Source: a virus. From it: DNA of 27,489 bases. The notes below the pieces were generated by a model, which was given only the letters and a program-made list of their open reading frames with translations, had not been told where the DNA came from and did no database searches. Of the stretch, positions 1,706 to 20,981 are shown piece by piece. A program made the position numbers and the translations under genes. The stretch is taken from IMG/VR virus record IMGVR_UViG_3300031515_000003, positions 1-27,489 of that record; one strand, 5' to 3'. Each line of letters begins with the position of its first letter. Within the stretch, counting starts at the first letter, position 1.

Positions 1706-1716
1706 AAAACTACAAT
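1688..1716 (+). promoter_or_regulatory. Sigma-70-type promoter for the regulator and packaging genes
   Basis: TTGACA (1688-1693), a 17-bp spacer, and TACAAT (1711-1716) match the housekeeping consensus closely. Transcription would start near 1723 and run into the regulator at 1749 and then terS and terL. It is the best canonical promoter seen on the plus strand. Confidence 0.75.
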
Positions 1717-4252: not shown

Positions 4253-4282
4253 AAGGCGCCAATAAAAAAATACACGCTCCAT

Positions 4283-4297
4283 CCATAAAATATTTGT
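4283..4297 (+). promoter_or_regulatory. Late-promoter-like motif before the portal gene
   Basis: CCATAAAATATTTGT ends directly at ATG 4298. TAAAAT lies six bases before ATG, so transcription from a -10 at this place would begin at or near the start codon. There is no TTGACA-like -35 and no Shine-Dalgarno site. It is one of seven copies in the late region. Confidence 0.6.
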
Positions 4298-6259
4298 ATG
4301 AATCCACTAAACTTTTTAAAAACAATCACCAAAGCCTTAAGTCGAAAACCTGTGTTTTCTAGTATTTTTATCCCTTGGGGAGTTGGTAGAACATTCACGC
4401 GTCGTGATTATTATTATGGCATTGTTTTTTCTTGTATTGATGCAATAGCTCAAAATGTAGCCGCAAATAGATTTTTTGCGGTTAAAAAAGATGATAAAAG
4501 CCAGGTAAAAGAAGAAAATCACCCATCAATTAAACTTTTATATAAACCAAATCCTCTTCAATCCTCTTACGATTTTTTTTATCTTGTTTCTTCTCATATT
4601 GATGCTTTTGGAAAAGCCTACATCTATCCTGTGTTTGACGGCAAAGGCGAGCCAAAAGAACTTTGGTTATTAGATCCTCAAAGAACAAAGCCAGTTCCAG
4701 GAAAAGATAGCTTGCTTGCTGGATATGTTTACTATAACTTAAAAAATGAAAAATTACCATTTGATGTTAATGAATTAATTGAAATCAAACGTCCTCACCC
4801 ATTTAACCAAATAGAAGGTGTTTCAACAATTGAAATGGCTCAACACTCAATCGAAGGCGATATAAACGCAGTTGAGTGGAATAAAAACTTCTTTGAAAAT
4901 GGAGCGATGCCATCAGGGGTGTTGTCAACCGATCAAGAAATATCGGAAGAGGCATTTCAGCGATTAAAAAAACAATGGCAAGAAAGGTACCAAGGAAAAG
5001 GAAATGCACACCGGCCGATGATATTAGAGGCAGGTTTAACTTGGCAGTCTTTAACCATAAAACAAAAAGATATGGATTTTATTGAACAGCGACGATTTTC
5101 TCGAGATGAGATTTTATCGATTTTTAAAGTGCCAAAAACAGTATTGGCAATAACCGATGATGTTAACCGAGCCAATGCTGAAGCCTCTGAATATGTCTTT
5201 GCCAAAAGAACAATTGAACCAAGACTTCGACTTATCTTTGACAAATTAAATCAGTTTTATATGCCTTTATTTTCCGATGGTAAAGACTATACTCTTCGTT
5301 TCGAAGATCCAACCCCAGAGAACGTAGAGATGAAACTTAAAAAATGGGAAACTGGATTGCGTGCTGGATTTTTAACAATAAATGAAGTAAGGTCCGAAGA
5401 CAAAAAAGAACCGGTAAAAGGTGGCGATGTGATTTATATTCCTTTTAATTTAGTTCCTTTATCATCAAATGAGAGCAATAATCAAAATAGTAGCGGTGGT
5501 GAAAATCAAAAATCGATTTTAAAAAAAGAAGTTAATCATATTCCTTTGCGTGATCAAACACTTGAAAGACTTGAAGGCCAGTATCGGGCTAAACTTGATG
5601 AGCTTTTTAGAAAACTAACTTTAGAAATAAGGAAAAATAAAAAAAGCATAAAGAAAAAACAAAAAGATCCATTGATTGATGAAATAATTGGCAATATTTA
5701 CCCAGACACAACTGAGTGGAAAAAACTTTTTACCACAATTACTTTTGATTTAGGCGTTCAAGCGACTCAGGCGGCAATTGAACATCTTATTCAAATTTAC
5801 GGTATTCAACGAATGACTGATTCAGCATATAAAAAGGTTATTGACTGGTTAAAAAAAAGAATAGAAACATCAGCCTCACAAGTTGATCAAACATTATACA
5901 ATCGAGCAAGAGAAGTAATTGCTAGAAATTTGGCTGATAGTGTTTTTGACATAGACAAAATAAGAGAAGAAGTAGCACAAGTAATTGATGATGAAAGATA
6001 TTGGCGGGTTGAAAGAATAGTAAGAACTGAACTTTTTACTGCTTATTCAGAGACAGAATATCAAAGTTATTTGCAATCAGGAACGGTAAAAAATCTTAAA
6101 TGGATCGCCGCTGCCGATGAGCGAACTTGTCCTATATGCATGGAAAACCATTTAAAAGTTGTTGGGCTTGGAGAAGAGTTTCCAAGTGGTCACACTCATG
6201 CTCCAGCTCATATTCAATGTCGATGCTCATCTATTCCAACTTTAGATGAAAAAACCTAA
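4298..6259 (+). CDS. Portal protein fused to a MuF-like minor head domain
   Basis: The protein has 653 residues. Residues 1 to about 390 are an HK97/SPP1-type portal: N-terminal RDYYYGIVFSCIDAIAQNVA, then FGKAYIYPVF, LLDPQR and the C-terminal NRANAEASEYVFAKRTIEPR. A Ser/Asn-rich linker follows at about 390-405. From about 570 comes a Mu gpF/SPP1 gp7-type domain with VERIVRTELFTAYSETEY and a Cys/His cluster (DERTCPICMENH, then HIQCRC) near 609-648. Portal proteins form the dodecameric DNA gate, and MuF proteins are minor head components at the portal vertex. They are usually separate neighbouring genes and here form one chain. The gene begins directly after a late-promoter-like motif. Confidence 0.92.
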   Translation: MNPLNFLKTITKALSRKPVFSSIFIPWGVGRTFTRRDYYYGIVFSCIDAIAQNVAANRFFAVKKDDKSQVKEENHPSIKLLYKPNPLQSSYDFFYLVSSHIDAFGKAYIYPVFDGKGEPKELWLLDPQRTKPVPGKDSLLAGYVYYNLKNEKLPFDVNELIEIKRPHPFNQIEGVSTIEMAQHSIEGDINAVEWNKNFFENGAMPSGVLSTDQEISEEAFQRLKKQWQERYQGKGNAHRPMILEAGLTWQSLTIKQKDMDFIEQRRFSRDEILSIFKVPKTVLAITDDVNRANAEASEYVFAKRTIEPRLRLIFDKLNQFYMPLFSDGKDYTLRFEDPTPENVEMKLKKWETGLRAGFLTINEVRSEDKKEPVKGGDVIYIPFNLVPLSSNESNNQNSSGGENQKSILKKEVNHIPLRDQTLERLEGQYRAKLDELFRKLTLEIRKNKKSIKKKQKDPLIDEIIGNIYPDTTEWKKLFTTITFDLGVQATQAAIEHLIQIYGIQRMTDSAYKKVIDWLKKRIETSASQVDQTLYNRAREVIARNLADSVFDIDKIREEVAQVIDDERYWRVERIVRTELFTAYSETEYQSYLQSGTVKNLKWIAAADERTCPICMENHLKVVGLGEEFPSGHTHAPAHIQCRCSSIPTLDEKT

Positions 6260-6282
6260 AAAGAAAAAAAAATAATAGTTGA

Positions 6283-6297
6283 CCATACAATATTTAT
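6283..6297 (+). promoter_or_regulatory. Late-promoter-like motif before the protease gene
   Basis: CCATACAATATTTAT ends directly at ATG 6298, with the same spacing as the copy at 4283. GTTGA precedes it. Confidence 0.6.
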
Positions 6298-7536
6298 ATG
6301 AAAAATAAACTATTTACATCAGCAACTTGCAAAGCTGTTGTTAACAAAGACGAAAAAATCGTCCATGTAATTGCTTCAACTGGTGTTATTGACCGGCATG
6401 GTGAATCGGTTAATCCTCAAGGGTGGTTGTTAGATAACTTTAAAAAAAATCCAGTGGTTTTAATTGCTCATGATTATCGATCACTTCCAATTGGAAAAGC
6501 AGTTAAAGTTTGGGTGGAGGATGAAAAACTTCAAGCCTATATTCAAATTGCCGACACTCAAGAAGGAAGAGAAGTTTTTTATCTAATTGAAAATGGATTT
6601 TTAAACACAGTCTCAGTTGGTTTCATTCCAACTAAATATGGTGTTTCCGGTCAGGATCCATATACCATTATGGAAGCTGAACTTTTGGAAATTTCATTTG
6701 TGGCTGTCCCAGCTAATCCTGAAGCTTTGATAAACAACGACGTTCAATCAAGATTTTTATTTTTAGAGAAATCACTTGATGAGGCTCAATATAAAGGAGC
6801 GGTTCCATTTGAATCTTATGAGAAAGATGAATCATCCTCTTGGGATGGAGATAAAGCAAGAAAACAATTAGCAAAATGGGCTTCATCTGATGGGTCAGGT
6901 GATAAAGACAAAATTGACTGGGGAAAGTATAAAAAAGGTTTTGGTTGGTTTGATGAGAAAGATAAAGAAAATTTTGGTTCTTATAAACTTCCCCATCACT
7001 ATGTAAAAGATGGGAAATTGGTAACGGTTTGGTCAGGATTAAAAGCAGCAATGGGGGCTTTACTTGGTGCTAGAGGCGGAACAAACATACCGGCTGAAGA
7101 TCGCAAAGGGGTATACAATCATCTAGCCAAACATTATAAAGAATTTGAGAAAGAAGCGCCAGAGTTTAAGGAATACACAAACGAAGAACTTTTTGAATTA
7201 GATCAAAAAGGATTAATTGATTGCGGTGAAGTCTTGGAAATAAATAAAGAATATTTAGCAAAGATAAAAAAAGAAGCCGATGAAATAAGAAATCTTAAAA
7301 AAACAATTAAAAGCATATTGGAAGAAATGTTTTTGAAATATAAAGTGGTTGAGGAAAAAGTTGTTGAAAAAATCATTCGAGTAAAAGATGATGAGCTGTC
7401 TGAAGACGCAGTTAAGCTTCTTTATAAGATGAGAAAGGAAATGAGAAAAAGTGATAAATATACCGGGCTGTCTTTAAAAATTTTAAATTCGCTATTAAAA
7501 GTTAGTAGTTCCGAAGGGAAAGGGGGTGAAAAATAA
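6298..7536 (+). CDS. HK97-type prohead protease with extra domain and scaffold-like tail
   Basis: This enzyme cleaves capsid precursors during head maturation. Residues 1 to about 155 form the U35 serine protease: H58 in VVLIAHDY, S106 in NTVSVGF, and the following ELLEISFVAVPANP with E131. Residues about 165-285 form a second domain (DGDKARKQLAKWASSDGSGD, then FGSYKLPHH, ALLGARGG and RKGVYNHLAKHYK) that I know as an add-on in some phage proteases, of unclear function. The last 110 residues are a charged coiled coil, probably acting as the scaffold for the capsid protein encoded next. The gene ends inside the ribosome site of the capsid gene. Confidence 0.9.
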   Translation: MKNKLFTSATCKAVVNKDEKIVHVIASTGVIDRHGESVNPQGWLLDNFKKNPVVLIAHDYRSLPIGKAVKVWVEDEKLQAYIQIADTQEGREVFYLIENGFLNTVSVGFIPTKYGVSGQDPYTIMEAELLEISFVAVPANPEALINNDVQSRFLFLEKSLDEAQYKGAVPFESYEKDESSSWDGDKARKQLAKWASSDGSGDKDKIDWGKYKKGFGWFDEKDKENFGSYKLPHHYVKDGKLVTVWSGLKAAMGALLGARGGTNIPAEDRKGVYNHLAKHYKEFEKEAPEFKEYTNEELFELDQKGLIDCGEVLEINKEYLAKIKKEADEIRNLKKTIKSILEEMFLKYKVVEEKVVEKIIRVKDDELSEDAVKLLYKMRKEMRKSDKYTGLSLKILNSLLKVSSSEGKGGEK

Positions 7537-7537
7537 T

Positions 7538-8668
7538 ATGGATGAGGAAAGAAAGGCCTTCGAGGAATTAAGCCAAAAGGTTATTGAAACCGTAACACCG
7601 GCAATTACCGAAAAGGTGTTGGCTGAACTTCCTCGAAGAAAAAATATCTTCGGCGGCGAAAGCGCTAATGCTGAAGTTCTCGAGCAAAAACAGGCTGCGG
7701 CCGAATATTTGCGAGCTAAATTCTTAAGAGATGAAGCTAAAGCAAAAGCTTTATCTTCAGGCACCAGTGGTAGTGGTGCTGAGTTGGTCCCAACCTATAT
7801 CTCCTCAGAAATCGTAAGATTGTCTGAGAAGGTTGGGTTGGTTCGCCAATATGCTCGCAAATGGCCGATGCAAGGTGGTAACGAAAACGTGCCCACTCTA
7901 TCAAGCGTAACTTCTTATAGAGTGGATGAAGGCACAAAAATCAACTCATCTCAGCCAGCAACAGGAAACGTCCAACTAAGAACTAAAACTGTTGGCGTAA
8001 TTATTCCTGTGACCAAACGCCTACTTCGAAATGCGAGCATTCAGTTGGTCGATGCGCTTAACGCTTTGGCCGCTGAAGCTATCGCAAAACTCGAAGATAA
8101 ATGGGCGATTTTGGGTCTGGCATCCGGTGAGGGGGTTTTTCAAAATCCTTCAGTTCCTGGTGTCACTTTAGGAACTGGAAAAACCACCTATGCAAAGGTC
8201 GAACCCGAGGATCTTTTAGACGCAATCGACTTGGTTGCTGAAGAGGCTGTCAACGAAAAAATGAAATGGGTAATGTCCTTATCCGTTTTAAACGCTCTTC
8301 GAAGAAAAAGAGCGGTCGTTGGCACTGATCCTCAAGGGTTCTTGCTTGGGGGCTTCGGTAGCGTTATCCCAAAAACTTTATGGGATATAGCATATGAGAC
8401 TCGTTCTTATATGCCTAAAACCACCGAAGGCAGTCAGGCTGGCAAAAAGTTTATGGCTCTTGTTAACTTTGATTACGTTTTATTCGGTGATGAAAACGTC
8501 TACACCTTAGACGTGTCAGATGTGGCAACCATCACCGATACAAACGGATCAACGCTTATCAACTCCTTTGAACAGGAGATGGTGGCGATCAAAGTTACTG
8601 AGTCTGTAGACATCCAGCTGGCTGAACCAAGCAAAGCATTTGCCTGGATCAAAACAGCAGCGTCATAA
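7538..8668 (+). CDS. Major capsid protein, HK97 fold
   Basis: This protein forms the icosahedral shell. I chose ATG 7538 rather than the in-frame GTG at 7526 because AGGGGGTG stands at the right distance; this gives 376 residues. The first 60-70 residues are a charged helical delta-like region, probably removed by the protease. The capsid core starts near GSGAELVPTYISSEIVRLSE and continues through VGVIIPVTKRLL and the acidic DKWAILG segment to the C-terminus. The gene uses visibly more C- and G-ending codons (GTC, ATC, AAC, GGC) than its neighbours, which fits very high expression. A structured RNA follows immediately. Confidence 0.92.
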   Translation: MDEERKAFEELSQKVIETVTPAITEKVLAELPRRKNIFGGESANAEVLEQKQAAAEYLRAKFLRDEAKAKALSSGTSGSGAELVPTYISSEIVRLSEKVGLVRQYARKWPMQGGNENVPTLSSVTSYRVDEGTKINSSQPATGNVQLRTKTVGVIIPVTKRLLRNASIQLVDALNALAAEAIAKLEDKWAILGLASGEGVFQNPSVPGVTLGTGKTTYAKVEPEDLLDAIDLVAEEAVNEKMKWVMSLSVLNALRRKRAVVGTDPQGFLLGGFGSVIPKTLWDIAYETRSYMPKTTEGSQAGKKFMALVNFDYVLFGDENVYTLDVSDVATITDTNGSTLINSFEQEMVAIKVTESVDIQLAEPSKAFAWIKTAAS

Positions 8669-8677
8669 GTTTAAACC

Positions 8678-8797
8678 GATGGCCGTAGGGTGAGCGGAAA
8701 TGCCTAACGAAAAAGATAAGTTAGGCAAATACCGCCGGCCAACATCCTAGGCCATCTTAGGGATGGGAGGTGGCCTAAGATGTTGAAAGTTTTTTAA
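8678..8797 (+). ncRNA. GC-rich structured RNA element downstream of the capsid gene
   Basis: The 135-base gap between the capsid gene and the next gene is GC-rich and full of complementary segments. GGCCG (8681-8685) pairs with CGGCC (8736-8740), GCGG (8694-8697) with CCGC (8732-8735), and TGCCTAAC (8701-8708) with GTTAGGCA (8720-8727). This makes one long arm with an 8-base bulge. AACATCCTAGGCC (8741-8753) pairs with GGCCTAAGATGTT (8772-8784) with one mismatch, followed by T6: a terminator-like hairpin. Competing pairings exist: GATGGCC/GGCCATC (8678/8750) and CATCTTAGG/CCTAAGATG (8753/8774). GGGAGGTGG (8765-8773) precedes a mini-frame of five codons at 8780-8797. It could be an attenuator that sets capsid excess, or an RNA with another role. 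Confidence 0.6.
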
Positions 8798-8803
8798 AAA
8801 AAT

Positions 8804-9004
8804 ATGAGAATAAAAATGATTGAAACAACTGTTTTTGAAGGGATAAAGTATGAGAAAGAAAAAGAATATGAGGTTGAGAAAGAAACAGCGAAGGCTTTAG
8901 GCTCATCGGCAAAAATTATAAAAGAAGAAAAAACAAAAATCATCGATGAGTCAAAAAATACAATGATGACTGGTAAAGAAGTTAAAAAGAAAGAAAAAAA
9001 ATAA
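8804..9004 (+). CDS. Small charged head-region protein
   Basis: The 66-residue protein begins RIKMIETTVFEGIKYEKEKE and continues YEVEKETAKALG, then ends in a Lys/Glu-rich tail. The short beta-type start with 'YxKxxxYxVxxxTAKAL' resembles the tiny proteins often found between capsid and connector genes in siphoviruses; the function is not known. It follows the structured RNA and its mini-frame, so its translation may depend on re-initiation. A second small protein of similar style is encoded at 10910. Confidence 0.65.
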   Translation: MRIKMIETTVFEGIKYEKEKEYEVEKETAKALGSSAKIIKEEKTKIIDESKNTMMTGKEVKKKEKK

Positions 9005-9008
9005 AAAT

Positions 9009-9614
9009 ATGTTATATGCAACTCTCTATTATAGTGGCTATTCAGGAGTAACCGCACAGGCGGTTGCGAATTTTTTGGGAAAAACACTAAACACTACCGA
9101 ACAGAATATTGTCACAGCATTAATTTCTTCAATTGAACTTTTTATCGCACAAAAATGCCGAAGGAATTTTAAATATGATTTAGGCTCTGATTATTATGAG
9201 GAAACATTTGATGCAGGATTAGACAAATACTACTTTCACAACTTTCCGGTAAAAGAAGTGGCAAAAATAACCATTGGCAATCAAGATGTTTATGTAAAAG
9301 GTGGAGGGGCTAATCTTTATGAGTTAAACAAAGACTTTTTCGTTTATCGTGATAGTATTGTTTTTTTAACCATTCCTCAATCAACATATAATCGTCAAGC
9401 TTTAAAAATTGCTTATAGCATTGAGAAGTTTTGGGGTGAGGATTTGGAGCTTGGAATAAAACAATGGGCGGCTCAGATATTTACTCAAAAAGAATATGGG
9501 GGTAAAAACGTCTCTTCATTTAATTTTGCTGGTTTATCAATTTCTTTCAATCAAGAGCCAATCCCAGAATACATTCAGCAATTAATTAAAACTTATAAAA
9601 AAGTGCTTGTATGA
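9009..9614 (+). CDS. Head-tail connector (gp6/adaptor-like)
   Basis: The 201-residue protein is probably the adaptor ring below the portal. The N-terminal half is helical (VTAQAVANFLGKTL, then QNIVTALISSIELFIAQKC), as in HK97 gp6 and SPP1 gp15. A beta-rich middle (YYEETFDAGLDKYYFHNFPV, KEVAKITI) and a helical end (LGIKQWAAQIFTQKEYGG) follow. The aromatic 'YxE.FDG..K..FL..FPV' pattern is typical of the family. The gene overlaps the next by four bases (ATGA), so translation is coupled. Confidence 0.7.
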   Translation: MLYATLYYSGYSGVTAQAVANFLGKTLNTTEQNIVTALISSIELFIAQKCRRNFKYDLGSDYYEETFDAGLDKYYFHNFPVKEVAKITIGNQDVYVKGGGANLYELNKDFFVYRDSIVFLTIPQSTYNRQALKIAYSIEKFWGEDLELGIKQWAAQIFTQKEYGGKNVSSFNFAGLSISFNQEPIPEYIQQLIKTYKKVLV

Positions 9615-9940
9615 TAAGGCAAAACTGTATTGTAAAAATTCAAAGATTGACCGGTGATGAGAATAATAAAAACTATCAAGATTTAGCAACTAATGTTTAC
9701 ATTTTAATTGAACCAGCATCAAATGAAACGGCGGTAATGTATGAGGTGCCAGTTGGTCAATCTTATTCTTTTATGATAATGGATCAAGTTGATTGGATAA
9801 GACCAGGGGATAAAATCATTGTTTTAGATCCTCAAACAAGTGGACTATCAGTAAATGATCAATTAATAGTTAGAGGTAACGCTCAAAAGTCGTACGTCTT
9901 AGGTCATATTTTCAATAGTGGCGTTGCCGTAAAAACTTGA
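9611..9940 (+). CDS. Probable head closure (stopper) protein
   Basis: The 109-residue protein is predicted mostly beta, with the segment SYSFMIMDQVDWIRPGDKII and later DQLIVRGNAQK. Both look like the small barrel proteins that close the head channel (SPP1 gp16-type). The call leans on gene order, between the connector and the gp10-like gene, as much as on sequence. It starts within the ATGA overlap with the connector gene. Confidence 0.5.
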   Translation: MIRQNCIVKIQRLTGDENNKNYQDLATNVYILIEPASNETAVMYEVPVGQSYSFMIMDQVDWIRPGDKIIVLDPQTSGLSVNDQLIVRGNAQKSYVLGHIFNSGVAVKT

Positions 9941-9945
9941 AAAAT

Positions 9946-10458
9946 ATGCCATCAGGTTATCAGGTTGAAATAGAACTTAAAGGATTTGAAGAGTTTAAAG
10001 AAAAGCTACGTCAAGCGCCTGATATTGTGGCTGATGTTAAATATAGGATGATGGATGCGATGGTGACTATTGCAAGAGAAAAAGCTGTGATGGAGGCGCC
10101 GATTGATACTGGTAATTTGCGAAGAAATATTGGAGCAAATAGTAAGGTGGTTGCCATGGGAAATGATCTTTATGGGACGGTTGGCACAAACTTGGTTGCA
10201 AGTGGTTTTCCTTATCCTAAAGCTCAAGAGTATGGTAGTGGTATTTATGGTGAAAGAAGAACACCAATTACCCCAAAACGGGGAAAGTTTTTGATTTTTA
10301 AACCCAAAGGCAGTGATAAATATGTCTTTGCTAAAAAAGTATCTGGTGTAAAACCAAAATACTTTATGAAGAAAGCGGCTGAGGAGGTAAAAAGACGAAG
10401 TAGTGAGATTTTAAAGATAGGATTGGAGATTGTTAATAAGTTATCTTTTTCATCATGA
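9946..10458 (+). CDS. HK97 gp10-like head-tail joining protein
   Basis: The sequence contains the family pattern: VEIELKGFEEFKEKL at the start, AREKAVMEAPIDTGNLRRNI (the 'AP.dTG.Lr.sI' hallmark), AQEYGSGIYG and PKYFMKKAAEE. HK97 gp10-like proteins take part in joining head and tail or in tail completion. I chose ATG 9946; a TTG at 9937 overlapping the previous stop would add three residues. The gene overlaps the next by four bases. Confidence 0.8.
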   Translation: MPSGYQVEIELKGFEEFKEKLRQAPDIVADVKYRMMDAMVTIAREKAVMEAPIDTGNLRRNIGANSKVVAMGNDLYGTVGTNLVASGFPYPKAQEYGSGIYGERRTPITPKRGKFLIFKPKGSDKYVFAKKVSGVKPKYFMKKAAEEVKRRSSEILKIGLEIVNKLSFSS

Positions 10459-10877
10459 CATACAATAGCTTAATTGAAAAAATAAAAAACATTATTGTAG
10501 CTGGGGTACCAGATATTCAGTCATCATATGACTATTACCCAGAAAGCTTATCATCTTTCCCGGCGCTTGTGGTTGGTGCAATTGGTCACGAAGATAGCTT
10601 TTATACTTTATCATCATCGGGATTCAATACTAGGCATTACTCAATCTCAATAAGAATTATTGGTGATTTAGAAAATACCGAAATAAACACACAGAAAAAA
10701 ATAAGAGAGATAACTGATAAGGTGATTGATGTTTTAGAAAAAAATCCTACTTTAGATAATACAGTTGATTGGTGTTATCCAACCAAAGCTCGCTTTGGTT
10801 TTCAAGGAGAACCAGCAAAGTATTATTACTCAGAAATTACTTTAACTGTTAAATTTAGATTTCAACGGGCAAATTAA
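10455..10877 (+). CDS. Probable tail terminator protein
   Basis: The 140 residues have an alpha/beta layout: an N-terminal helix, then FPALVVGAIGHEDSFYTL, RHYSISIRIIGD, a central helix and C-terminal YYYSEITLTVKFRF. This matches small tail terminators (lambda gpU or SPP1 gp17 type), which cap the tail tube. The position, between the gp10-like gene and the tail tube gene, supports the call. Confidence 0.6.
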   Translation: MTYNSLIEKIKNIIVAGVPDIQSSYDYYPESLSSFPALVVGAIGHEDSFYTLSSSGFNTRHYSISIRIIGDLENTEINTQKKIREITDKVIDVLEKNPTLDNTVDWCYPTKARFGFQGEPAKYYYSEITLTVKFRFQRAN

Positions 10878-10894
10878 AAAAAATAAAAAGGTAA

Positions 10895-10909
10895 CCATAT
10901 AATACTTTT
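10895..10909 (+). promoter_or_regulatory. Late-promoter-like motif before a small gene
   Basis: CCATATAATACTTTT ends directly at ATG 10910. The spacing equals that of the copies at 4283 and 6283. TATAAT here is a perfect -10. Confidence 0.55.
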
Positions 10910-11065
10910 ATGAGAAAAAAATATATTTACAAAGGCGAGGTTGAAACTTATATTCCAGGAATAGGGATTGTTTATCCCAATCAAGAGATTGAAACGGAAA
11001 AAGAAATTAGAAATTTGTTATTTGAAGAAAAAAAAGAAAATAAAGAAAAAAAGAAAAAAAATTAA
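10910..11065 (+). CDS. Small protein, 51 aa, unknown
   Basis: Read from ATG to TAA, it gives KYIYKGEVETYIPGIGIVYP, then an acidic and Lys-rich helix. It looks like a small beta-hairpin protein with a basic tail, similar in style to the product at 8804. The late-promoter-like motif abuts its ATG and another copy follows its stop, which supports real expression. No function recognised. Confidence 0.6.
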   Translation: MRKKYIYKGEVETYIPGIGIVYPNQEIETEKEIRNLLFEEKKENKEKKKKN

Positions 11066-11072
11066 AAGTTAA

Positions 11073-11090
11073 CCGTAAAATATTAATACT
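11073..11090 (+). promoter_or_regulatory. Late-promoter-like motif before the tail tube gene
   Basis: CCGTAAAATATTAATACT ends at ATG 11091. TAAAAT stands nine bases before ATG, so a leader of about three bases would result. Confidence 0.55.
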
Positions 11091-12041: not shown

Positions 12042-12042
12042 T

Positions 12043-12601: not shown

Positions 12602-12620
12602 AAACATTTGTAATTAATAC

Positions 12621-13163
12621 TTAATCGTTTAAATGTTGAATAGCATAATCAGCTTCTTCTTCGGTAAATTTTTCTCCATAAGGTGATATTAGCTGGTCGC
12701 GAATCGCTGCTGGTGACATATTCATATTTTTAAGATAAGTTTTTGCTTTGATTAAAGCATTTTTTTTCCAATCGGCTTTGACATTATCGATAGCGTATTG
12801 AGCAGCTTCTTGACTAAATTTTTCGCCGTATGGAGAAATTAATTGATCATAAACAGATTTTTTTGACATATGCATAAGGTTTGCATAAGTATAAGCTTTA
12901 TTTAACGCCGCTTTATATTCTGGCGAAATTTGAGGAACGGGTGTATTTTTTGTGGCTTCTTTTGATGTATTTGAATTCAGATTAGTTTTTAGATCTGATT
13001 GTTTATTAGACCCGCTTGATCCGACTATGCTAATAATAATTAAAATTAAGAAGAATGTAATAATTGGATGACGAATAAACCAGTTTCTTAAATCAGTCTG
13101 ACAATAAGGGCATTTGGTTGCTTTTGGATCAATTTCTTTTTGGCAGGCTTTACATTTTTTCAT
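12621..13163 (-). CDS. Ltp-like superinfection-exclusion protein, zinc ribbon and membrane anchor
   Basis: In this 180-residue protein, C4, C7, C18 and C21 form a zinc ribbon. Residues about 33-50 are one membrane segment, a polar Ser/Asn/Thr linker follows, and two repeats (about 83-131 and 132-180) each contain DQLISPYGEKF followed by AxYAI. These repeats match the Ltp domain of the Streptococcus phage TP-J34 lipoprotein, which sits at the outer membrane face and blocks DNA entry of related phages by binding their tape measure protein (published knowledge). This gene is reversed in the late operon, has its own promoter and strong ribosome site (AGGAGGTGA), and lies just before the tape measure gene. 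It should be expressed in the lysogen. It is anchored by a membrane helix, not a lipobox. Confidence 0.8.
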   Translation of the reverse strand: MKKCKACQKEIDPKATKCPYCQTDLRNWFIRHPIITFFLILIIISIVGSSGSNKQSDLKTNLNSNTSKEATKNTPVPQISPEYKAALNKAYTYANLMHMSKKSVYDQLISPYGEKFSQEAAQYAIDNVKADWKKNALIKAKTYLKNMNMSPAAIRDQLISPYGEKFTEEEADYAIQHLND

Positions 13164-13190
13164 TTACTTCACCTCCTTCCATAAATTCAA

Positions 13191-13219
13191 ATTTTAATAC
13201 ATCATTAATTTTTTTTCAA
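13191..13219 (-). promoter_or_regulatory. Sigma-70-type promoter of the Ltp-like gene
   Basis: On the minus strand TTGAAA (13219-13214), a 17-bp spacer and TAAAAT (13196-13191) lie upstream of the GGAGGTGA site and ATG at 13163. This gives the gene expression independent of the late genes. Confidence 0.55.
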
Positions 13220-13243
13220 TCATAAAAAAAAGCCGTGCACTCT

Positions 13244-13259
13244 CCATAAAATATTATAT
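13244..13259 (+). promoter_or_regulatory. Late-promoter-like motif before the tape measure gene
   Basis: CCATAAAATATTATAT ends at ATG 13260. It restarts plus-strand transcription after the reversed Ltp-like gene. Confidence 0.6.
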
Positions 13260-15572
13260 ATGGAAAACAATAATCTTCAGATAGTTTTTAGAATAAAGGA
13301 TGAAACAACTGCAGGTATAGAATCTGCAAAAAAAAATATAACCGGGCTGCAAAAGACGGTTCAGGGTTCTTTTAGTTTTATAAAAGATCATTTAAAAGAA
13401 GGAGCATTAGCCGCTTCAGGTTTTCTTGCATCAATGGGATTAATGGCTAAAGGAATGATTGATGTAACATCAAATATGGAACAATGGAGAATGGCTTTTG
13501 AGACAATGCTTGGTTCAGCTGATTTAGCAGGAAAAAAATTAAAAGAATTATCAGATTTTGCTATAAAAACACCATTTGATTTGCCGCAAGTTATAGAAGG
13601 AGCAAAAAGACTTTTAGCTTATAACGTTGAGGCTGATAAATTAATTCCTACTTTTAAGATGCTTGGCGATATAGCAGCCGGAGTAGGAAGAGAAAAGTTG
13701 CCAAACTTAATATTAGCATTTGGTCAGGTAAAGGCAGCAACTAAATTAACTGGTGCGGAGTTAAGACAGTTTAGCGAGGCAGGAGTACCATTATTACAAG
13801 CATTAGTTGATCAGGCAAATGAAACAGGTGGAGCTTTAACAAAGGTTGGTGGCGTATCAAAAGAAACAGCTAAGAAAATTAAATCTTTAGCCTCTTCTAT
13901 TGCTCAAGCGGAATTTGATTTGAATTATTTTAGACAAACTGGTGGTAAAACTGAAAAACAATTAAAAGCACTTGAGGAAAGAATAAAAAAGAATAAAGAA
14001 CAATTATCTTCATTTGGTTCAGTTGGACAAGAGGTTTATACAAAAGTTAAGGTAAGTGCTAAAGAAATGATAAAACAAATAAGTGAAGGAAATGTGAGTT
14101 TTGAGCAAGTTGAAACCGCATTAAGAAAGATGACTGAGGAAGGTGGAAGATTTTATAACCTAATGGATAAACAGTCAAAAACTTTTGGTGGAGTGATGAG
14201 TAATTTAAGAGATGAGATGGTAAGGTTTAGTATTGCATTAATGGGCATGACCGATGAAGGTGAAATAAGAAAAGGAAGTATATTTTATTATCTTAAAATT
14301 GGGGCTGAAGAGGCTTTAAAAGCAGTAAACGTTGTTAGACCAGTAGTAGTTGATTTTATTGATAATTTATTGAGAAATAAAGAAGCATTAGCGGTAATTG
14401 CTGGGGCGATAGCAGGATTATTTGTTTTGATTGGACTTGCCTTTCTTCAGCTTTCAGCACCAGCTTTAGCAGTAGCAGGTTTTTTTGCTCTTGTTGGTGG
14501 AGCTATGGGATTTATTTTAGAAAAAGCATCTCCATTAATTTATTTTATAAATGGAGTTTTTACTCCTGTATGGAATAATTTTCTAAAACAACTTGATCAA
14601 TCAAGGTTATATTTTGAATTGTTAGGAAAAAACATTGAAGGATTTTTTATTGCTCTTTTTATAGTTTTTGGTAAATTTTTAATTCCTCTTATTGGTAATT
14701 TTATTTTATTTTTTGTTGTGGTTACAGGAGTATTGAGTGGAATAGCTAACGCAATAAGTGGGTTTGTTCAAATGTTTGCTGGTTTAGTTCAATTTTTTAA
14801 TGGTATTTGGGAGATAATAAAAGGTATATTCACTTTAAATCTAAATTTGATTTTGACGGGTTTTTACAACACTTTTATGGGGATATGGAATACAGTGGTT
14901 GGGTTTTTAACTGCGATTTATTTGTTTATTGAAGGCTTTATTAAAGCTGTTATTAATATATTTATATCTTTATATAATGCTTTAATTGGTCATTCTATTA
15001 TTCCTGATTTAGTTAATGGAATTTTTAATTGGATAAATAAATTAGTATCAAACGTAACTAGTTGGATTACCACAATGAAAGATAATCTTATTTCTATTGT
15101 TGATAATTTAAAAAATAACATTATTTCTTCATTTTCAACTTTAAAAACAAAAGTGGTTGATTTTATAACTGGAATGGCAAGATCAATAGAATCAATTTTA
15201 GGAGGACTTGCGTCAAAAGCTTGGAATTGGGGTTATAACATTATTAAAAATATGATTAATGGTTTAAAAAATGCTATAAAGTCAGCGGGAAAATTAGCAG
15301 GACATCTTTTGGGAGCTTTGGGTATTTCAATGTCTGATTTAGATCATTATGCTGGTGGTGGTTGGGTAAGAGAAACGGGGCCTGCTATAGTTCATAAAGG
15401 CGAGTATGTTTTGTCAAAAGACATGTTGGCTGGTAGACAACCATCTATATTACCAGCAATTACAAATAATTATAATCGACCAATAAGTATCCAGATGAAT
15501 CCGGTTATTCACACTCAAGTTGATTTGGATTATTTAGCTTATAAATTAGCTTATCAATTAAGAAATATATGA
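13260..15572 (+). CDS. Tape measure protein
   Basis: The protein has 770 residues. The N-terminal part carries the typical tape-measure region: MEQWRMAFETMLGSADLAGK, FAIKTPFDLPQVIEGAKRLL, LTGAELRQFSEAGVPLLQAL. A helical stretch follows, then several hydrophobic segments between about 375 and 570 that probably insert in the host membrane. The C-terminal AGGGWVRETGPAIVHKGEYV is a common tape-measure end. Family knowledge puts tail length at about 0.15 nm per residue, so a tail near 115 nm is expected. It overlaps the next gene by four bases. Its product is the type of target bound by Ltp proteins, one of which is encoded just upstream. Confidence 0.93.
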   Translation: MENNNLQIVFRIKDETTAGIESAKKNITGLQKTVQGSFSFIKDHLKEGALAASGFLASMGLMAKGMIDVTSNMEQWRMAFETMLGSADLAGKKLKELSDFAIKTPFDLPQVIEGAKRLLAYNVEADKLIPTFKMLGDIAAGVGREKLPNLILAFGQVKAATKLTGAELRQFSEAGVPLLQALVDQANETGGALTKVGGVSKETAKKIKSLASSIAQAEFDLNYFRQTGGKTEKQLKALEERIKKNKEQLSSFGSVGQEVYTKVKVSAKEMIKQISEGNVSFEQVETALRKMTEEGGRFYNLMDKQSKTFGGVMSNLRDEMVRFSIALMGMTDEGEIRKGSIFYYLKIGAEEALKAVNVVRPVVVDFIDNLLRNKEALAVIAGAIAGLFVLIGLAFLQLSAPALAVAGFFALVGGAMGFILEKASPLIYFINGVFTPVWNNFLKQLDQSRLYFELLGKNIEGFFIALFIVFGKFLIPLIGNFILFFVVVTGVLSGIANAISGFVQMFAGLVQFFNGIWEIIKGIFTLNLNLILTGFYNTFMGIWNTVVGFLTAIYLFIEGFIKAVINIFISLYNALIGHSIIPDLVNGIFNWINKLVSNVTSWITTMKDNLISIVDNLKNNIISSFSTLKTKVVDFITGMARSIESILGGLASKAWNWGYNIIKNMINGLKNAIKSAGKLAGHLLGALGISMSDLDHYAGGGWVRETGPAIVHKGEYVLSKDMLAGRQPSILPAITNNYNRPISIQMNPVIHTQVDLDYLAYKLAYQLRNI

Positions 15573-16402
15573 TAAAAAAAATTGTTATTGGCGATCTAAC
15601 AATATCACCCGAAAACGGCTACTTTATTCAATCTATAAAGGATTTAGGATATAAAACCAAATATCCGGTAGCCTCTATTTTGTATTTACACGGAGTAAAG
15701 ATTGGTGATTTATTTTTTGAAAATAAAGCGTTGGCGGTTGAACTAAAAATCGGGGCTTCAACAATCGATGATTTAATTGAAAAAAGAAGTAAGATTTATG
15801 AGAAATTGACATTAAAGGAATACGGTGATGATAAGATAACAATTGAGTTTCATTTAGGCAATAACTTAATTTTAGAAGCCAAAGGGGTGGTTAAAGATGT
15901 TAATTCTGATTTGGTGGTTGATAATTTAACAACTTGCGATTTATCATTCACAATTGAACTTGAGGAACCATTTTTAAAATCAAAGCAAGTTTATGAGGTA
16001 ATTTTTGGAATAACCAAAGGTGGCGGGGCTTCAGTACCAATGGCAATTCCCTTAAATATGACGCAAGGCTCAAGCGGATTTTCACTTGTTAATAACGGAG
16101 GCAATATTTTCTCTTTCCCAGAGATTTATTTCTACGGCAAATTGACTAATCCTGTGCTTTTAAACAAAACTACCGGTAAATCAATCTCTTTTAATCAATA
16201 TATAGAAAGTGGCAATTATATTTACGTTGATACTTATAATCGGATTGTTATTGATAACTTAGGAAATAACAAAAGAGATAAAATGAGTGGGGATTTTGTG
16301 ATTTTGGAAAAAGGCGAAAATCAATTTACTTTGTCATCTGATGTGCCAACCGAAAATGGCTATGTGAAGTTTATTTATAAGTATTTCTATATCTCAATAT
16401 GA
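15569..16402 (+). CDS. Distal tail protein (Dit-like)
   Basis: The 277-residue protein comes directly after the tape measure gene, the standard Dit position. The N-terminal half is a beta domain (IVIGDLTISPENGYFIQSIK and later LYLHGVKIGD), and the middle LSFTIELEEPFLKSK matches the siphovirus tail-component pattern. The C-terminal half is a galectin-like beta sandwich (FPEIYFYGKLTNPVLLNKTT). It would form the hexameric ring at the tail tip. Coupled by ATGA overlaps on both sides. Confidence 0.75.
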   Translation: MIKKIVIGDLTISPENGYFIQSIKDLGYKTKYPVASILYLHGVKIGDLFFENKALAVELKIGASTIDDLIEKRSKIYEKLTLKEYGDDKITIEFHLGNNLILEAKGVVKDVNSDLVVDNLTTCDLSFTIELEEPFLKSKQVYEVIFGITKGGGASVPMAIPLNMTQGSSGFSLVNNGGNIFSFPEIYFYGKLTNPVLLNKTTGKSISFNQYIESGNYIYVDTYNRIVIDNLGNNKRDKMSGDFVILEKGENQFTLSSDVPTENGYVKFIYKYFYISI

Positions 16403-17424
16403 TTGGCAACTGGCGGGCTTTTTTGTATGACAAATCCGATGTTTTTTTAGCCGAACTTCCAATGGAAGGGCTTAGTATAACTTTTGAATTAAATGGTATT
16501 CCGAAAGCTCAAATTAGGGTAAACTATCATATTTTCAAAGACTGGATGACAAGACAAAACATAGCAGTTAATGATGTTTTATCATCAGGTTTTAGGTGGG
16601 TAAAAATCACTCGAAATAATACCGTTATTTTCAAAGGAATATTGACTGAAGCATCAGTTAGAAAATATGTGATGGATATAAATGTCTTTTTAACTTTTAG
16701 AGGATGGCTTGCTTATTTTGAAAAACGATATATCACCAAAACCTATACAAACACCGATGCGGGTCAAATCGCTTGGGATATGATTTTAACCGCTCAAGGT
16801 GAAACATATGGGAATATTGGAATAACACAGGGAACAATTCAAACAACGGTTTCTCGGGATAGAACATATAAGGATGATGATATAGCAAAAAATATTATTC
16901 ATTTAACAAATTTTGAAATAATAAACGGGTTTGAGTTTGAAATAACCAATGATAAAGTCCTTACTGTCAAATCACGAATCGGGACGGATAAGCCATACAT
17001 TGTTTTTGATAGAGCAAATATCAAATCGTGGCAGATTGATTATAAACTGTCTTTACTTTTGACAAATGAAGTTATCGCTTACGGGGAAGGAATTGGTGAT
17101 GATCAACTAAAAGTGGTAAGAGAAGCGTCAAATATTTATAAGGACAAATGGTATTTACTTGAAGATATTTATAACAACATCTCAGTCAAAGAACAATCAA
17201 CACTTGAAGCACAAGCGGACAAATATATAGATCAAAACAAAGATGCGTCAAAAGTTTTTAATATCACAGTAATAACCAATAACATTGATTTAAACGACTA
17301 TAATGTTGGCGATGGAGTTAAAGTTGAGATTGAGGATATAATAAACGGAATTTATAGGATTAAAACAAAAGAAATCTATGTTAATGAAGGCAGTGAAGAA
17401 ATAAGGTTAGAATTTTTGTTTTAA
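16399..17424 (+). CDS. Tail hub/baseplate protein (Gp37-like)
   Basis: The 341 residues are beta-rich, starting WRAFLYDKSDVFLAELPMEG, with TRNNTVIFKGILTEASVRKY and DAGQIAWDMILTAQGETYGN. This matches siphovirus tail proteins of the ReqiPepy6 Gp37/Tal N-terminal type, which form the trimeric hub below Dit. There is no C-terminal lytic or fibre extension; the fibres are encoded by the next genes. It overlaps the preceding gene by four bases. Confidence 0.7.
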   Translation: MIGNWRAFLYDKSDVFLAELPMEGLSITFELNGIPKAQIRVNYHIFKDWMTRQNIAVNDVLSSGFRWVKITRNNTVIFKGILTEASVRKYVMDINVFLTFRGWLAYFEKRYITKTYTNTDAGQIAWDMILTAQGETYGNIGITQGTIQTTVSRDRTYKDDDIAKNIIHLTNFEIINGFEFEITNDKVLTVKSRIGTDKPYIVFDRANIKSWQIDYKLSLLLTNEVIAYGEGIGDDQLKVVREASNIYKDKWYLLEDIYNNISVKEQSTLEAQADKYIDQNKDASKVFNITVITNNIDLNDYNVGDGVKVEIEDIINGIYRIKTKEIYVNEGSEEIRLEFLF

Positions 17425-17429
17425 AAATT

Positions 17430-18332
17430 ATGGATAATTTTTTAGAGGAATTTAAAAAATTGAAAGAAAAGGTTGAAGCGTTGGAAAAAAGAACTTTGTC
17501 AAGTTTAAAACTTGATAGTTTAACTACTGGGATAATAAAACCATCTTCAGATTCAAATTCAGCGATTAAAATAACAAAAGCAGACGGAGAAACTAATGTT
17601 TTAAGTATAGATACTATTAATAATCGTGTTGGCATTAATACAATTAGTCCTTTGCACAATTTTCAAGTTTACAGAACATCACTTGTTGACCCATCTCTAA
17701 CATTTACAACTAACGCTACTGCAGGGATAAGAACAGAAAATATTGATATTGTTTTTGGAGCATACACGACTCATCCATGGGCAGCGTGGATTCAGGCCCG
17801 TCATACAACTAACCAAGCCTGGCCTTTAGTTATTAATCCCCTTGGAGGAAACGTTGGCATTGGGACAAATGCACCATCAGAAAAATTAGAAGTAAATGGC
17901 AATGTTAAAGTTAGTGGAATAAAAGTATCAAATGGAGTTTTTAGATCTTTGACAAGATCTGATTTTCTTTTAGTTTTACAAAGTGATAGAAATATGGTTT
18001 TATATGATAATGGCACAGCTATTTGGAGTTCAGGAACGGGTCAATCGGATATTAGACTAAAAAAAAATATTAAAGAAATGGAAAGTGTTTTAGAAAATAT
18101 AAAAAAAATAAGAGTTGTCAGATTTAACTATAAAAACTATCAACCAAAAAAACAACAAATAGGAATAATAGCTCAAGAATTAGAAAAATATTATCCAGAA
18201 TTTATTTTTACTGATAAAAAAGGCTATAAATTAATATTTTATGATAAATTAACAACGATTTTAATAAAAGCAATTCAAGAATTATCATTAAAAGTTGAAA
18301 ATTTAGAAAAAAAATATGAAAAACTTAACTAG
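17430..18332 (+). CDS. Tail fibre with lectin motif and S74 self-cleaving chaperone
   Basis: The 300 residues start with a coiled coil (about 3-22), then a Thr/Asn-rich beta region with NVGIGTNAPSEKLEVNGN (141-158), a common fibre repeat. Residues 178-203 contain LVLQSDRNMVLYDNGTAIWS. Q184, D186, N188, V190 and Y192 give the QxDxNxVxY mannose-binding motif of bulb-type lectins. From S206, SDIRLKKNI and IGIIAQELEKYYPE mark a Peptidase_S74 intramolecular chaperone, which trimerises the fibre and cuts itself off at the Ser of the Ser-Lys dyad. It probably contributes to host binding through a sugar. The C-terminal coiled coil is typical of this chaperone. Confidence 0.85.
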   Translation: MDNFLEEFKKLKEKVEALEKRTLSSLKLDSLTTGIIKPSSDSNSAIKITKADGETNVLSIDTINNRVGINTISPLHNFQVYRTSLVDPSLTFTTNATAGIRTENIDIVFGAYTTHPWAAWIQARHTTNQAWPLVINPLGGNVGIGTNAPSEKLEVNGNVKVSGIKVSNGVFRSLTRSDFLLVLQSDRNMVLYDNGTAIWSSGTGQSDIRLKKNIKEMESVLENIKKIRVVRFNYKNYQPKKQQIGIIAQELEKYYPEFIFTDKKGYKLIFYDKLTTILIKAIQELSLKVENLEKKYEKLN

Positions 18333-18477
18333 TCAAGAGTTTGATATTATCATTCAAGCTCTATACAACTCAAACGTCAGGGTGGCTGACGCACCAATAA
18401 TTTTAAGATTAATTGAAAAAATCTTAAAAATTAAAGAAGAAAGTCAAAAAGAAGAAACTCAAAAACAAAAAAAATAA
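18316..18477 (+). CDS. Small helical protein, 53 aa, unknown
   Basis: ATG 18316 lies within the end of the fibre gene. The product (LTSQEFDIIIQALYNSNVRV, then ILRLIEKILKIKEES and a Lys/Gln tail) is a compact, probably helical protein. Short helical proteins of this kind are frequent beside fibre genes. No family recognised. The balanced hydrophobic pattern supports coding. Confidence 0.55.
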   Translation: MKNLTSQEFDIIIQALYNSNVRVADAPIILRLIEKILKIKEESQKEETQKQKK

Positions 18478-18485
18478 CCCTCCCT

Positions 18486-18500
18486 CCATAAAATATTTAT
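18486..18500 (+). promoter_or_regulatory. Late-promoter-like motif after the S74 fibre
   Basis: CCATAAAATATTTAT ends directly at ATG 18501, matching the copies at 4283 and 6283 in spacing. It probably drives the baseplate protein gene at 18596 through a micro-frame. Confidence 0.6.
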
Positions 18501-18572
18501 ATGATCGACTTTCAAAAAATAAAACAAAAAGAGGAAAAAGGAATTGATTTAAAAGAATTGATCATTTATTAG
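18501..18572 (+). CDS. Micro-frame of 23 codons behind the late motif
   Basis: MIDFQKIKQKEEKGIDLKEL, then IIY and a stop. It begins exactly where the motif places the start and ends 23 bases before the next gene. It could be a leader peptide or a small protein. Support comes mainly from the motif. Confidence 0.35.
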   Translation: MIDFQKIKQKEEKGIDLKELIIY

Positions 18573-18595
18573 TTTATTAACAAAGCAAAAAATCT

Positions 18596-19474
18596 ATGGC
18601 TAAATATATCTCAATCAGACAAGGAACTTCCGCACATCCCGAACAATCCGTTGCTCACTTAACACACGATTTAATATATCAAACAGGGGTTGTTGATTTA
18701 ACTTCCGATTGGAAAGTCACTGAAAACAATCCGCAAAACTTAAGTGTTAATATAGAGCCAGGTCGAGGCTTTTTCAAAAAAACAGTAATGACATATCACG
18801 GCTATTCAGACGCGGTTGAAAACATAACAATTACATCTAACAATTCAGGCAATCCTCGAATTGATGCGGTTGTATTATATGTTGACTTATCAGTAACTCC
18901 TAATTCAGACGCTTCAAATGTTTTGAAATCAAGGGTAATTCAGGGAACACCGGCTTCATCACCATTACCACCAACGGATAATGAAATACAAACAGTAATA
19001 GGAGCAGGAAATCCATTTTTACGATTGGCCAATGTTTACGTTGCTAATGGGGCTTCGTCTATCACCAATGCTAATATCACAGACACAAGAGTGCCAGCGT
19101 ATTTAAAAACACCAAATGGAATTAAGGATCAAAGGATTATCAATCCAACCACCAAAGGAGGAAAACAAGAGGTTTTTCAAACATCAGGAAGTGGAAATAT
19201 TACTTTGGATTTTGGTAGTTATAATGTTTTTAAAATCACACTTACCGGCAATGCTACTTTAAGTTTTATCAACGCCGAAGTTGGCCAGTTTAGAAAGATT
19301 GATTTAATTCAAGATGGAAATGGTTCAAGAACCGTCAATTGGCCAACAGGAATCAAATGGCCAGATGGGGTGGCACCAGTATTGACACCAACAGCAAATA
19401 AAACTGATAGTTTTGTTATTGAGGTTATAGGAACAAATCAATACAACGGTTATATAGTTGGTCAAAACTTATGA
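18596..19474 (+). CDS. Baseplate or tail fibre structural protein
   Basis: The 292 residues start ISIRQGTSAHPEQSVAHLTH and continue with MTYHGYSDAVENITI, GNPRIDAVVLYVDL and RLANVYVANGASSITNANIT. I know this arrangement from phage upper-baseplate or adaptor proteins that hold receptor-binding proteins. The C-terminal 100 residues (SGNITLDFGSYNVFKITLTG, NWPTGIKWPDG) form a beta-rich domain seen at fibre tips. No enzymatic residues are visible. It overlaps the next small gene by four bases. Confidence 0.7.
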   Translation: MAKYISIRQGTSAHPEQSVAHLTHDLIYQTGVVDLTSDWKVTENNPQNLSVNIEPGRGFFKKTVMTYHGYSDAVENITITSNNSGNPRIDAVVLYVDLSVTPNSDASNVLKSRVIQGTPASSPLPPTDNEIQTVIGAGNPFLRLANVYVANGASSITNANITDTRVPAYLKTPNGIKDQRIINPTTKGGKQEVFQTSGSGNITLDFGSYNVFKITLTGNATLSFINAEVGQFRKIDLIQDGNGSRTVNWPTGIKWPDGVAPVLTPTANKTDSFVIEVIGTNQYNGYIVGQNL

Positions 19475-19653
19475 TTAATACAATTTTTGTTATTCAAGGG
19501 TATGAACAAAAAATGGAAGATGGAAGGCTTTTAGATGTGGTTGTTTTTGAAGTTTATGCTAAAAATGAAAAAGAAGCGATAAACAAAGCAAAGAAATATC
19601 TAAAAAAACCATTTTATAGAGTTAGCAATATTATTGAAAAAAATGAAAAATGA
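19471..19653 (+). CDS. Small protein, 60 aa, unknown
   Basis: It reads INTIFVIQGYEQKMEDGRLL, VVVFEVYAKNEKEAINKAKK: a beta-beta-alpha pattern. It is held between two fibre genes by ATGA overlaps, so it is translated with them and may be a fibre chaperone. Family not recognised. Confidence 0.6.
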   Translation: MINTIFVIQGYEQKMEDGRLLDVVVFEVYAKNEKEAINKAKKYLKKPFYRVSNIIEKNEK

Positions 19654-20930
19654 GAATTCCCAAAGATGTTATTTTAATTTGGACAGGGTTGAACTCAAAT
19701 ATCCCATCGGGTTGGACGAGGGAGACTTTATTAGACGACAAATTTCCAAAAGCTTGGGGAAGTGAAAATCCAAATGTTATCGGTGGAGCAGCAACCCATA
19801 GTCATACAACACAACCACACTCCCATAATTTAAGCAATCATAATCATTCATATACTTTAAATCCAGATCCAAATACTCAGGCTGGTGGAGTATGGGGTGG
19901 TGGTCAAAGTATTAGAGATGGTCATACGCATACAGGAACAAGTGGTAATGTTATTGGCGGGACTACTTCATCTGATAGTTTTACAACTGGTCAAGCGTCT
20001 AATTTACCACCATATTATGAAGTTATTTTTATCAAAGCTGGTTTAACCTCACTTCTCCAAGATGGGATTATTGCTTTATGGGGTAATAATAATCCACCAT
20101 CAGATTGGCAAATTTGTAATGGTGACAATGAAAGTCCAGATTTAAGAAACAGATATATTAAAGGTGCACCAACTAATGAAAATGCTGGTGGTATTGGTGG
20201 AAGTTATTATAATACACATAGTGTAAATCATAATCATACCCCAAGCCCACATTATCACGCAACCTCAACAAGCAATCAATCATCAGATGCTCGTGCTGGT
20301 TTAGGCGGAAGTAATGAATTTGCTGTTCCTTATTGGCATACTCATCAGGTTAGTTTTGGTAATTCAATTCAAAATATAAATGAATTTACTGGCAACTATA
20401 ACACTTCTGAAATAGTTGAGCCAGCTTATAAAAAAGTTTTAGCAATACAATTTAAGACTGGTGCTATAAAAAGAAAAGGAATAATTGGTTTATGGTTGGG
20501 TGATGTTAACAACATTCCAAAAGGTTGGGTTTTGTGTGACGGAAATAACGGGACGATAGATTTAAGAGATAAGTTTATAAAAATAGCAAATACTCCAGAT
20601 GAGGTTGGAATGACGGGTGGAAGCAACACTCATACTCATGCTAATTTTTCCCATAGTCATACTGGAAATACAAGTCATACTCATTCTGCTTCGTCTGATG
20701 CACACCGAAATCATCCAACACTAATTCAAGCAGGTAATGCTAGTCATTATCATAGAACTATTGCTGGAAATTATCATCAAAGTATTAGTGTAAATTCAGT
20801 TTTAGCAAATTATGATAGTGCAAATATAGTATTTAATCAAGCTGATAACCAACCACCATATAGAACAGTTGCTTATATTCAATTTCAAAAAGAAATTTAT
20901 GGTGGAAGCGCGCTTTTAAACTTCATTTAA
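19650..20930 (+). CDS. Tail fibre with three tandem tail-collar-like repeats
   Basis: The 426 residues form three similar units, about 1-128, 132-270 and 276-415. Each unit starts with a Trp segment (ILIWTG, IALWGN, IGLWLG) and 'nnIPkGW.lCdG', goes on to a DLRdkFIK segment, a Gly run, a His-rich stretch (THSHTT, NHNHTPSPHYH, THTHANFSHSHT) and ends with PPYYEVIFIKA, PAYKKVLAIQF or PPYRTVAYIQF. This is the phage tail-collar pattern of T4 gp12-type fibres, in which HxH motifs of three chains bind metal. Here one chain carries three copies. It is a likely receptor-binding fibre. Confidence 0.8.
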   Translation: MRIPKDVILIWTGLNSNIPSGWTRETLLDDKFPKAWGSENPNVIGGAATHSHTTQPHSHNLSNHNHSYTLNPDPNTQAGGVWGGGQSIRDGHTHTGTSGNVIGGTTSSDSFTTGQASNLPPYYEVIFIKAGLTSLLQDGIIALWGNNNPPSDWQICNGDNESPDLRNRYIKGAPTNENAGGIGGSYYNTHSVNHNHTPSPHYHATSTSNQSSDARAGLGGSNEFAVPYWHTHQVSFGNSIQNINEFTGNYNTSEIVEPAYKKVLAIQFKTGAIKRKGIIGLWLGDVNNIPKGWVLCDGNNGTIDLRDKFIKIANTPDEVGMTGGSNTHTHANFSHSHTGNTSHTHSASSDAHRNHPTLIQAGNASHYHRTIAGNYHQSISVNSVLANYDSANIVFNQADNQPPYRTVAYIQFQKEIYGGSALLNFI

Positions 20931-20964
20931 ATCATCCTACCTTAAAAAAAATATAACCTCTCGA

Positions 20965-20981
20965 CCATAAAATATTTTTGT
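20965..20981 (+). promoter_or_regulatory. Late-promoter-like motif before the endolysin gene
   Basis: CCATAAAATATTTTTGT ends at ATG 20982, giving a start two bases further from the motif than at 4283. It marks the lysis cassette as its own transcription unit. Confidence 0.6.

Follow-up and report, generated by a model that had tools for sequence, protein, structure and literature searches.

A two-part element at seven start codons

The DNA analysed here, hereafter the window, is a virus record of 27,489 bases from IMG/VR (IMGVR_UViG_3300031515_000003) with a GC content of 33%. Its Pfam-recognised structural genes mark it as a tailed phage, i.e., portal, prohead protease, HK97-type capsid, tail tube (Phage_tube_2, E 1.1e-26) and tape measure (TMP_3, E 2.5e-23) were found, together with a C39-like peptidase (Peptidase_C39_2, E 1.6e-11) that is a probable endolysin. 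The protein encoded at 2900 matched phage terminases in tblastn. Sequence searches of phage and PDB collections returned distant relatives only, and Rfam and tRNA scans of the window gave no matches. Here we describe a short two-part element that abuts the start codons of seven genes of this phage and that we read as a candidate late promoter. The copies are listed with the gene or open reading frame (ORF) that follows each of them.

4264..4297, + strand: candidate late promoter 1, portal gene, ATG 4298; A7 at 4264-4270; core CCATAAAATATT at 4283-4294; putative -10 TAAAAT at 4286-4291
6264..6297, + strand: candidate late promoter 2, prohead protease gene, ATG 6298; A9 at 6264-6272; core CCATACAATATT at 6283-6294; putative -10 TACAAT
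10876..10909, + strand: candidate late promoter 3, 51-aa ORF, ATG 10910; A8 at 10876-10883; core CCATATAATACT at 10895-10906; putative -10 TATAAT (consensus)
11054..11090, + strand: candidate late promoter 4, tail tube gene, ATG 11091; A8 at 11054-11061, within the last part of the preceding ORF; core CCGTAAAATATT at 11073-11084
13224..13259, + strand: candidate late promoter 5, tape measure gene, ATG 13260; A8 at 13224-13231; core CCATAAAATATT at 13244-13255
18467..18500, + strand: candidate late promoter 6, tail-fibre module, ATG 18501; A8 at 18467-18474; core at 18486-18497
20944..20981, + strand: candidate late promoter 7, C39-like peptidase gene, ATG 20982; A8 at 20944-20951; core at 20965-20976

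All seven copies combine a run of seven to nine A with a core that ends 3–6 nucleotides (nt) before the ATG, and the complete element can be written as A8 - N10-13 - CCATANAATATT - N3-6 - ATG. The last A lies 25–30 nt before the start codon; the run spans about -34 to -27 and reaches as far as -36. None of the 21 + strand genes without the motif has an A-run at this position, though the window contains 50 runs of at least seven A. Within the core, CC is invariant at all eight independent sites despite the low GC content, and the hexamer TANAAT, i.e., TAAAAT, TACAAT or TATAAT, varies at its third position alone (8/8).

A preliminary description of this DNA, made from the sequence alone, had reported seven copies with 15–18 bases between CC and ATG. 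Both statements held: all copies are on the + strand and none on the - strand, and the CC-to-ATG distances are 15, 15, 15, 18, 16, 15 and 17 nt in site order. The corresponding distances from the end of the hexamer to the ATG are 6, 6, 6, 9, 7, 6 and 8 nt. Distances between the parts shift independently by 1–3 nt, with 10–13 nt from A-run to CC and 6–9 nt from hexamer to ATG. Compared with the seven copies observed, order 1 to 3 Markov models of the window predicted a mean of 0.0025–0.01 cores followed by ATG (maximum 1 in 400), and no match at all was found in these models when at least A7 was required upstream. The absence of a -35 element, also claimed earlier, was correct insofar as neither TTGACA at 16–18 nt nor a TGn extended -10 is present at the motif sites. 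However, the conserved A8 box had been overlooked, and these sites carry A8 box and CC instead. A T directly precedes the ATG at 7/7 motif genes, but also at 14/21 other + strand and 7/10 - strand genes; as a general trait of the genome it was rejected as evidence for the start site.

The copies occur only after a gap, as had been noted, and this placement was significant: 7 of the 10 genes that start at least 20 nt past the previous stop carry the motif, compared with 0 of 15 others (Fisher p = 2.5e-4). Likewise, the motif genes lack a Shine-Dalgarno (SD) sequence. No anti-SD pairing was found there (best dG -1.1 to +1.7 kcal/mol), whereas two genes with SD sequences (2416, 7538) gave anti-SD dG values of -10 to -12 kcal/mol.

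Conservation and distribution of the element

Five contigs are 88–98% identical to the window phage at the portal protein, and further relatives were found by capsid and pattern searches. The metagenomes from which relatives were obtained include those of Great Boiling Spring (60 °C; 3300020153, PMC6624737) and of LCB019, a hot spring in Yellowstone (3300031463, PMC10033731). A motif search in related phages had been suggested as a check. In nine records, i.e., the window and eight relatives, 31/31 copies possessed the A-run, with 7–10 A ending 10–13 nt before CC. We used the most diverged relative, G001 (24 kb), as the reference comparison for the window sites. Between both phages the core was identical at 82/84 positions (98%) and the A-run at 54/59 (92%), compared with 67/84 (80%) in the spacer, 210/315 (67%) in the 40 nt upstream and 243/315 (77%) in the first 42 coding bases. 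Site 5, at the tape measure gene, kept its A-run and core in G001 and G004, whereas spacer and flank were largely replaced. The portal site (site 1) is conserved in G001, G003, G005, G006 and G007. Moreover, an eighth copy is present in G001, where it precedes the homologue of window gene 15569; unlike this motif-preceded start, gene 15569 itself is stop–start coupled. The more distant phage L019 (capsid 55%) showed no such motif and has SD sequences.

In 2.9 million viral contigs the strict bipartite pattern matched the lineage of the window and one further record, G002, only. A relaxed pattern added three matches before ORFs of 1–6 codons, which were rejected as chance. The exact core was found in 31 unrelated viral contigs, of which 0/31 had the A-run and 1/31 had an ORF of at least 50 aa downstream. 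The strict pattern also yielded 38 scattered single matches in 84,980 genomes, few of them before real ORFs, and these were also rejected as chance; no genome had more than one. A terminase search of the genome contigs for related prophages found no relative. Within the viral and genome collections scanned, these results support the proposed confinement of the motif to the phage.

G002 represents another phage, whose head genes are unrelated to those of the window but which has the module at 18261–19062, one motif copy included, in common with it. About 105 nt around this copy are identical to the window, and the identity can therefore not be credited to the motif alone. The remaining genes in the G002 record, a 20-kb fragment, are without motif. 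The ORF that starts at 18501 encodes 23 aa in the window versus 90 aa in G001 and G002, and the window ORF (18501–18596) is evidently a remnant shortened by an internal deletion of about 170 nt relative to G002. In the reverse-complemented G002 record (L064), two other genes, at 1735 and 15047, begin straight behind T8 and a hairpin that resembles a terminator, reading TTTTTTTTGTATATG, which is possibly another start-abutting signal.

Promoter reading and alternatives

We consider the seven sites likely to be promoters and, with somewhat less certainty, probably phage-specific late promoters that give leaderless or near-leaderless mRNAs; promoter identity, start site and late timing we infer from sequence features. 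A promoter is favoured over a translation signal by the two-part layout, by how far upstream the A-run reaches (-36), by the way the hexamer varies and by the flexible distance to the ATG. The late-promoter reading of the preliminary description remains the best one, given the TANAAT hexamer, the conservation and the gene set; its claim that no upstream element exists was wrong. The hexamer follows the sigma70-type -10 pattern (TAnnnT/TATAAT). The A8 box, centred near -30, would take the place of the -35, and TANAAT together with CC would form an extended -10 in which CC occupies the position of the TG that sigma70 promoters may carry. As the hexamer ends 6–9 nt before the ATG, standard promoter geometry would place the RNA start 0–3 nt ahead of the A of the ATG. 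The elements most likely switch on particle and lysis genes. The units would be portal, protease/capsid, small protein, tail tube, tape measure, tail-fibre module and lysis, within which genes would be translated by stop–start coupling.

Upstream of these units lie two features from which a regulatory order may be drawn.

1688..1716, + strand: sigma70-type promoter TTGACA-N17-TACAAT, canonical, ahead of the putative activator gene
1749..2255, + strand: 168-aa protein, putative late activator with a weak sigma-70 region-4-like helix-turn-helix match, just ahead of the terminase genes

The promoter is present in the same place in G003 (TACAAT) and G001 (TAAAAT), i.e., in three records, and its occurrence in the window phage hence provides a host-type promoter for contrast within one phage. 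In the proposed order, it would supply activator and terminase, followed by the late sites. The 168-aa region-4-like protein would activate these sites while host sigma would still read the -10. We infer such activation tentatively, and whether the late sites depend on the 168-aa protein appears evenly balanced. The complete scheme, in which the phage protein redirects host RNA polymerase from TTGACA to the homopolymeric A8 box and CC-extended -10 and the late units are separate leaderless mRNAs, would give a small temperate tailed phage a compact switch for its late genes, with promoter choice tied to translation that needs no SD; we regard this scheme as possible but less likely than not. 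Relatives of the 168-aa protein were found in motif-bearing contigs only; these are all close kin, and its association with the motif is therefore not independent.

Several observations weigh against promoter and activator as outlined here. The 168-aa protein shows a weak sigma-like match (TIGR02937, best E 6e-4, in 4/5 members; phrog_351, sigma factor, E 2.7e-4), and fold prediction failed, with an AlphaFold model of pLDDT 47.7 that is too low for use. G002 keeps one motif copy and has no detectable homologue of this protein, but its record is a fragment. Genes 8804 and 22707 start after large gaps and have neither motif nor SD; the motif is therefore not required at every unit. Also, no clear terminators were seen between the units, and readthrough mRNAs with long leaders may therefore exist in addition.

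Phage-specific boxes near -30 are known from T4 middle promoters, where the MotA box is centred at -30, 12 ± 1 bp from the -12 TAtaaT -7 hexamer, and sigma is appropriated by AsiA/MotA (PMC2988021). As in T4, a box replaces the -35, a strict sigma70-type -10 is kept, and the spacing of both is nearly fixed, with 13–16 nt from the end of the A-run to the hexamer. By this analogy the motif sites probably work like T4 middle promoters. In contrast to T4, however, the box is A8 and not (a/t)(a/t)(a/t)TGCTTtA, CC is found and not TGn, structural and lysis genes are served, and the hexamer is just 6–9 nt from the ATG. MotA or AsiA homologues were not seen among the window proteins, although no search was aimed at either. 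With a differing box sequence and no MotA/AsiA shown, the sites are not members of the T4 middle family. Many genome-wide copies of a phage-specific late promoter are likewise found in phiKZ and AR9, where multisubunit RNA polymerases of the phages transcribe from them and AR9 leaders measure 26–491 nt (PMC5312081); no such polymerase was recognised among the window proteins searched.

Leaderless middle and late mRNAs have been reported from experiment for the Thermus phage phiYS40 (PMC3594737). This phage shares with ours the thermal habitat and structural genes apparently on leaderless mRNAs; promoter sequence and host differ, and the 5' ends are predicted in our case. In Deinococcus-Thermus, TANNNT -10 elements beside ORFs are a host-wide pattern (PMC12340547). 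The window sites would resemble it in a -10 few bases before the ATG and a leaderless mRNA without SD, but differ in that seven near-identical copies with CC and A8 belong to one phage lineage. Leaderless phage late mRNAs and -10 elements beside ORFs hence have precedents.

The strongest alternative is that the sites are promoters of the host's own leaderless type, read by host holoenzyme with housekeeping or alternative sigma and without any phage factor. The sigma70-like hexamer fits this view, some bacteria have many leaderless genes with an ORF-adjacent -10 (PMC3160421, PMC12340547), and the G002 copy resides in a phage without detectable 168-aa homologue. A host-wide promoter type is, however, at odds with at most one strict match per genome among the 84,980, the 38 matches being chance-like, and with the lack of the motif at other G002 genes, though the host of G002 is probably related. 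Moreover, the same phage uses TTGACA-17-TACAAT elsewhere. We regard reading by host holoenzyme alone as a serious but less than even possibility.

Gap-only placement is compatible with promoter and translation signal alike. A non-SD sequence could recruit ribosomes on a polycistronic late mRNA where stop–start coupling is impossible, and a motif that abuts the ATG, follows gaps exclusively and is found where SD sequences are missing agrees with such a role. Translational elements of this type might be compared to the start-associated sequences (SAS) and ESAS of Cluster K mycobacteriophages (PMC3203893) and Cluster EF Microbacterium phages (PMC7302621). Like the window motif, they are short, highly conserved and start-abutting at several genes in one orientation, and some SAS have a second upstream element. 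Unlike the window motif, they are RBS-like and sit at the position of the ribosome-binding site (RBS), as do the start-associated sequences thought to act in translation; the window motif shows no GGAG-containing sequence at the SD position, does not pair with anti-SD and contains a -10 hexamer. The 10–13 nt gap in a two-part layout, the A-run as far as -36, a hexamer varying at its third position only and the varying ATG distance also argue against translation, and the gap genes 8804 and 22707 manage without motif. A translation element is therefore unlikely.

A role as module-boundary repeats, i.e., short cassette-border sequences that promote recombination between phages, is very improbable. 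It would account for the module with one copy shared by the otherwise different G002, for the additional G001 copy and for the 89% identity between 18468–18504 and 4264–4301. Yet about 240 nt separate the motif from the G002 border upstream of it, A-run and core persist next to diverged spacers, and recombination needs no invariant spacing of TANAAT to the ATG. Chance in an A-rich, AT-rich genome with its many A7+ runs can be dismissed, as it was refuted by shuffles, conservation and the viral-contig control. The A-run was also considered as an UP element, which we rejected because the run would lie too near the -10.

In temperate tailed phages, late genes are usually assumed to be transcribed from a single promoter or a few of them. 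If the phage-specific late-promoter reading is true, a 27-kb phage with seven start-abutting promoters (eight in a relative) would represent a simple case of late control by a promoter array and leaderless mRNAs. The A8 box with CC, unlike the phage boxes compared, would give the search for its cognate factor a defined sequence to start from. The signal would also be usable as a transcription-unit marker in related uncultured hot-spring phages.

Host, integration site and neighbouring genes

In G003 (L007), positions 1–1320 hold a complete bacterial ftsZ ending in DIPTFLRKK-stop, with the integrase directly after it. We therefore conclude that the hosts are bacteria and that the 3' end of ftsZ is the integration site. 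The G003 FtsZ was up to 64% identical to members of G014's sampled phylum, which is not decisive for the host species. The window has codons for the DIPTFLRKK peptide at both ends (110–150 and 27360–27405), with synonymous differences around the shared TGACATCCCAAC, as if the phage restored the FtsZ C-terminal peptide. An archaeal reading of the core as TATA box was rejected: the start would fall within the coding region, yet N-termini are conserved, and bacterial-type FtsZ is found in the host DNA beside the prophage. The tyrosine integrase of the window (271–1309) is split by a frameshift near 716–750 into ORFs 271–750 and 716–1309, which may be a sequencing error or a broken gene.

Between capsid gene and gene 8804, at 8753–8803, lie a 9-bp hairpin (CATCTTAGG/CCTAAGATG) and a T6A7 tract that are kept in L018; gene 8804 itself follows a 135-nt gap. 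On the - strand, a single ORF at 24670–25971 joins a replication-initiation-like N-terminus, a transmembrane-like stretch and a transglycosylase SLT domain. Also on the - strand, a moron with its own SD is inserted between tail genes at 12621–13163. It encodes a zinc ribbon, a transmembrane-like stretch and two Ltp repeats (phrog_4980, E 4.9e-55) and resembles superinfection-exclusion lipoproteins.

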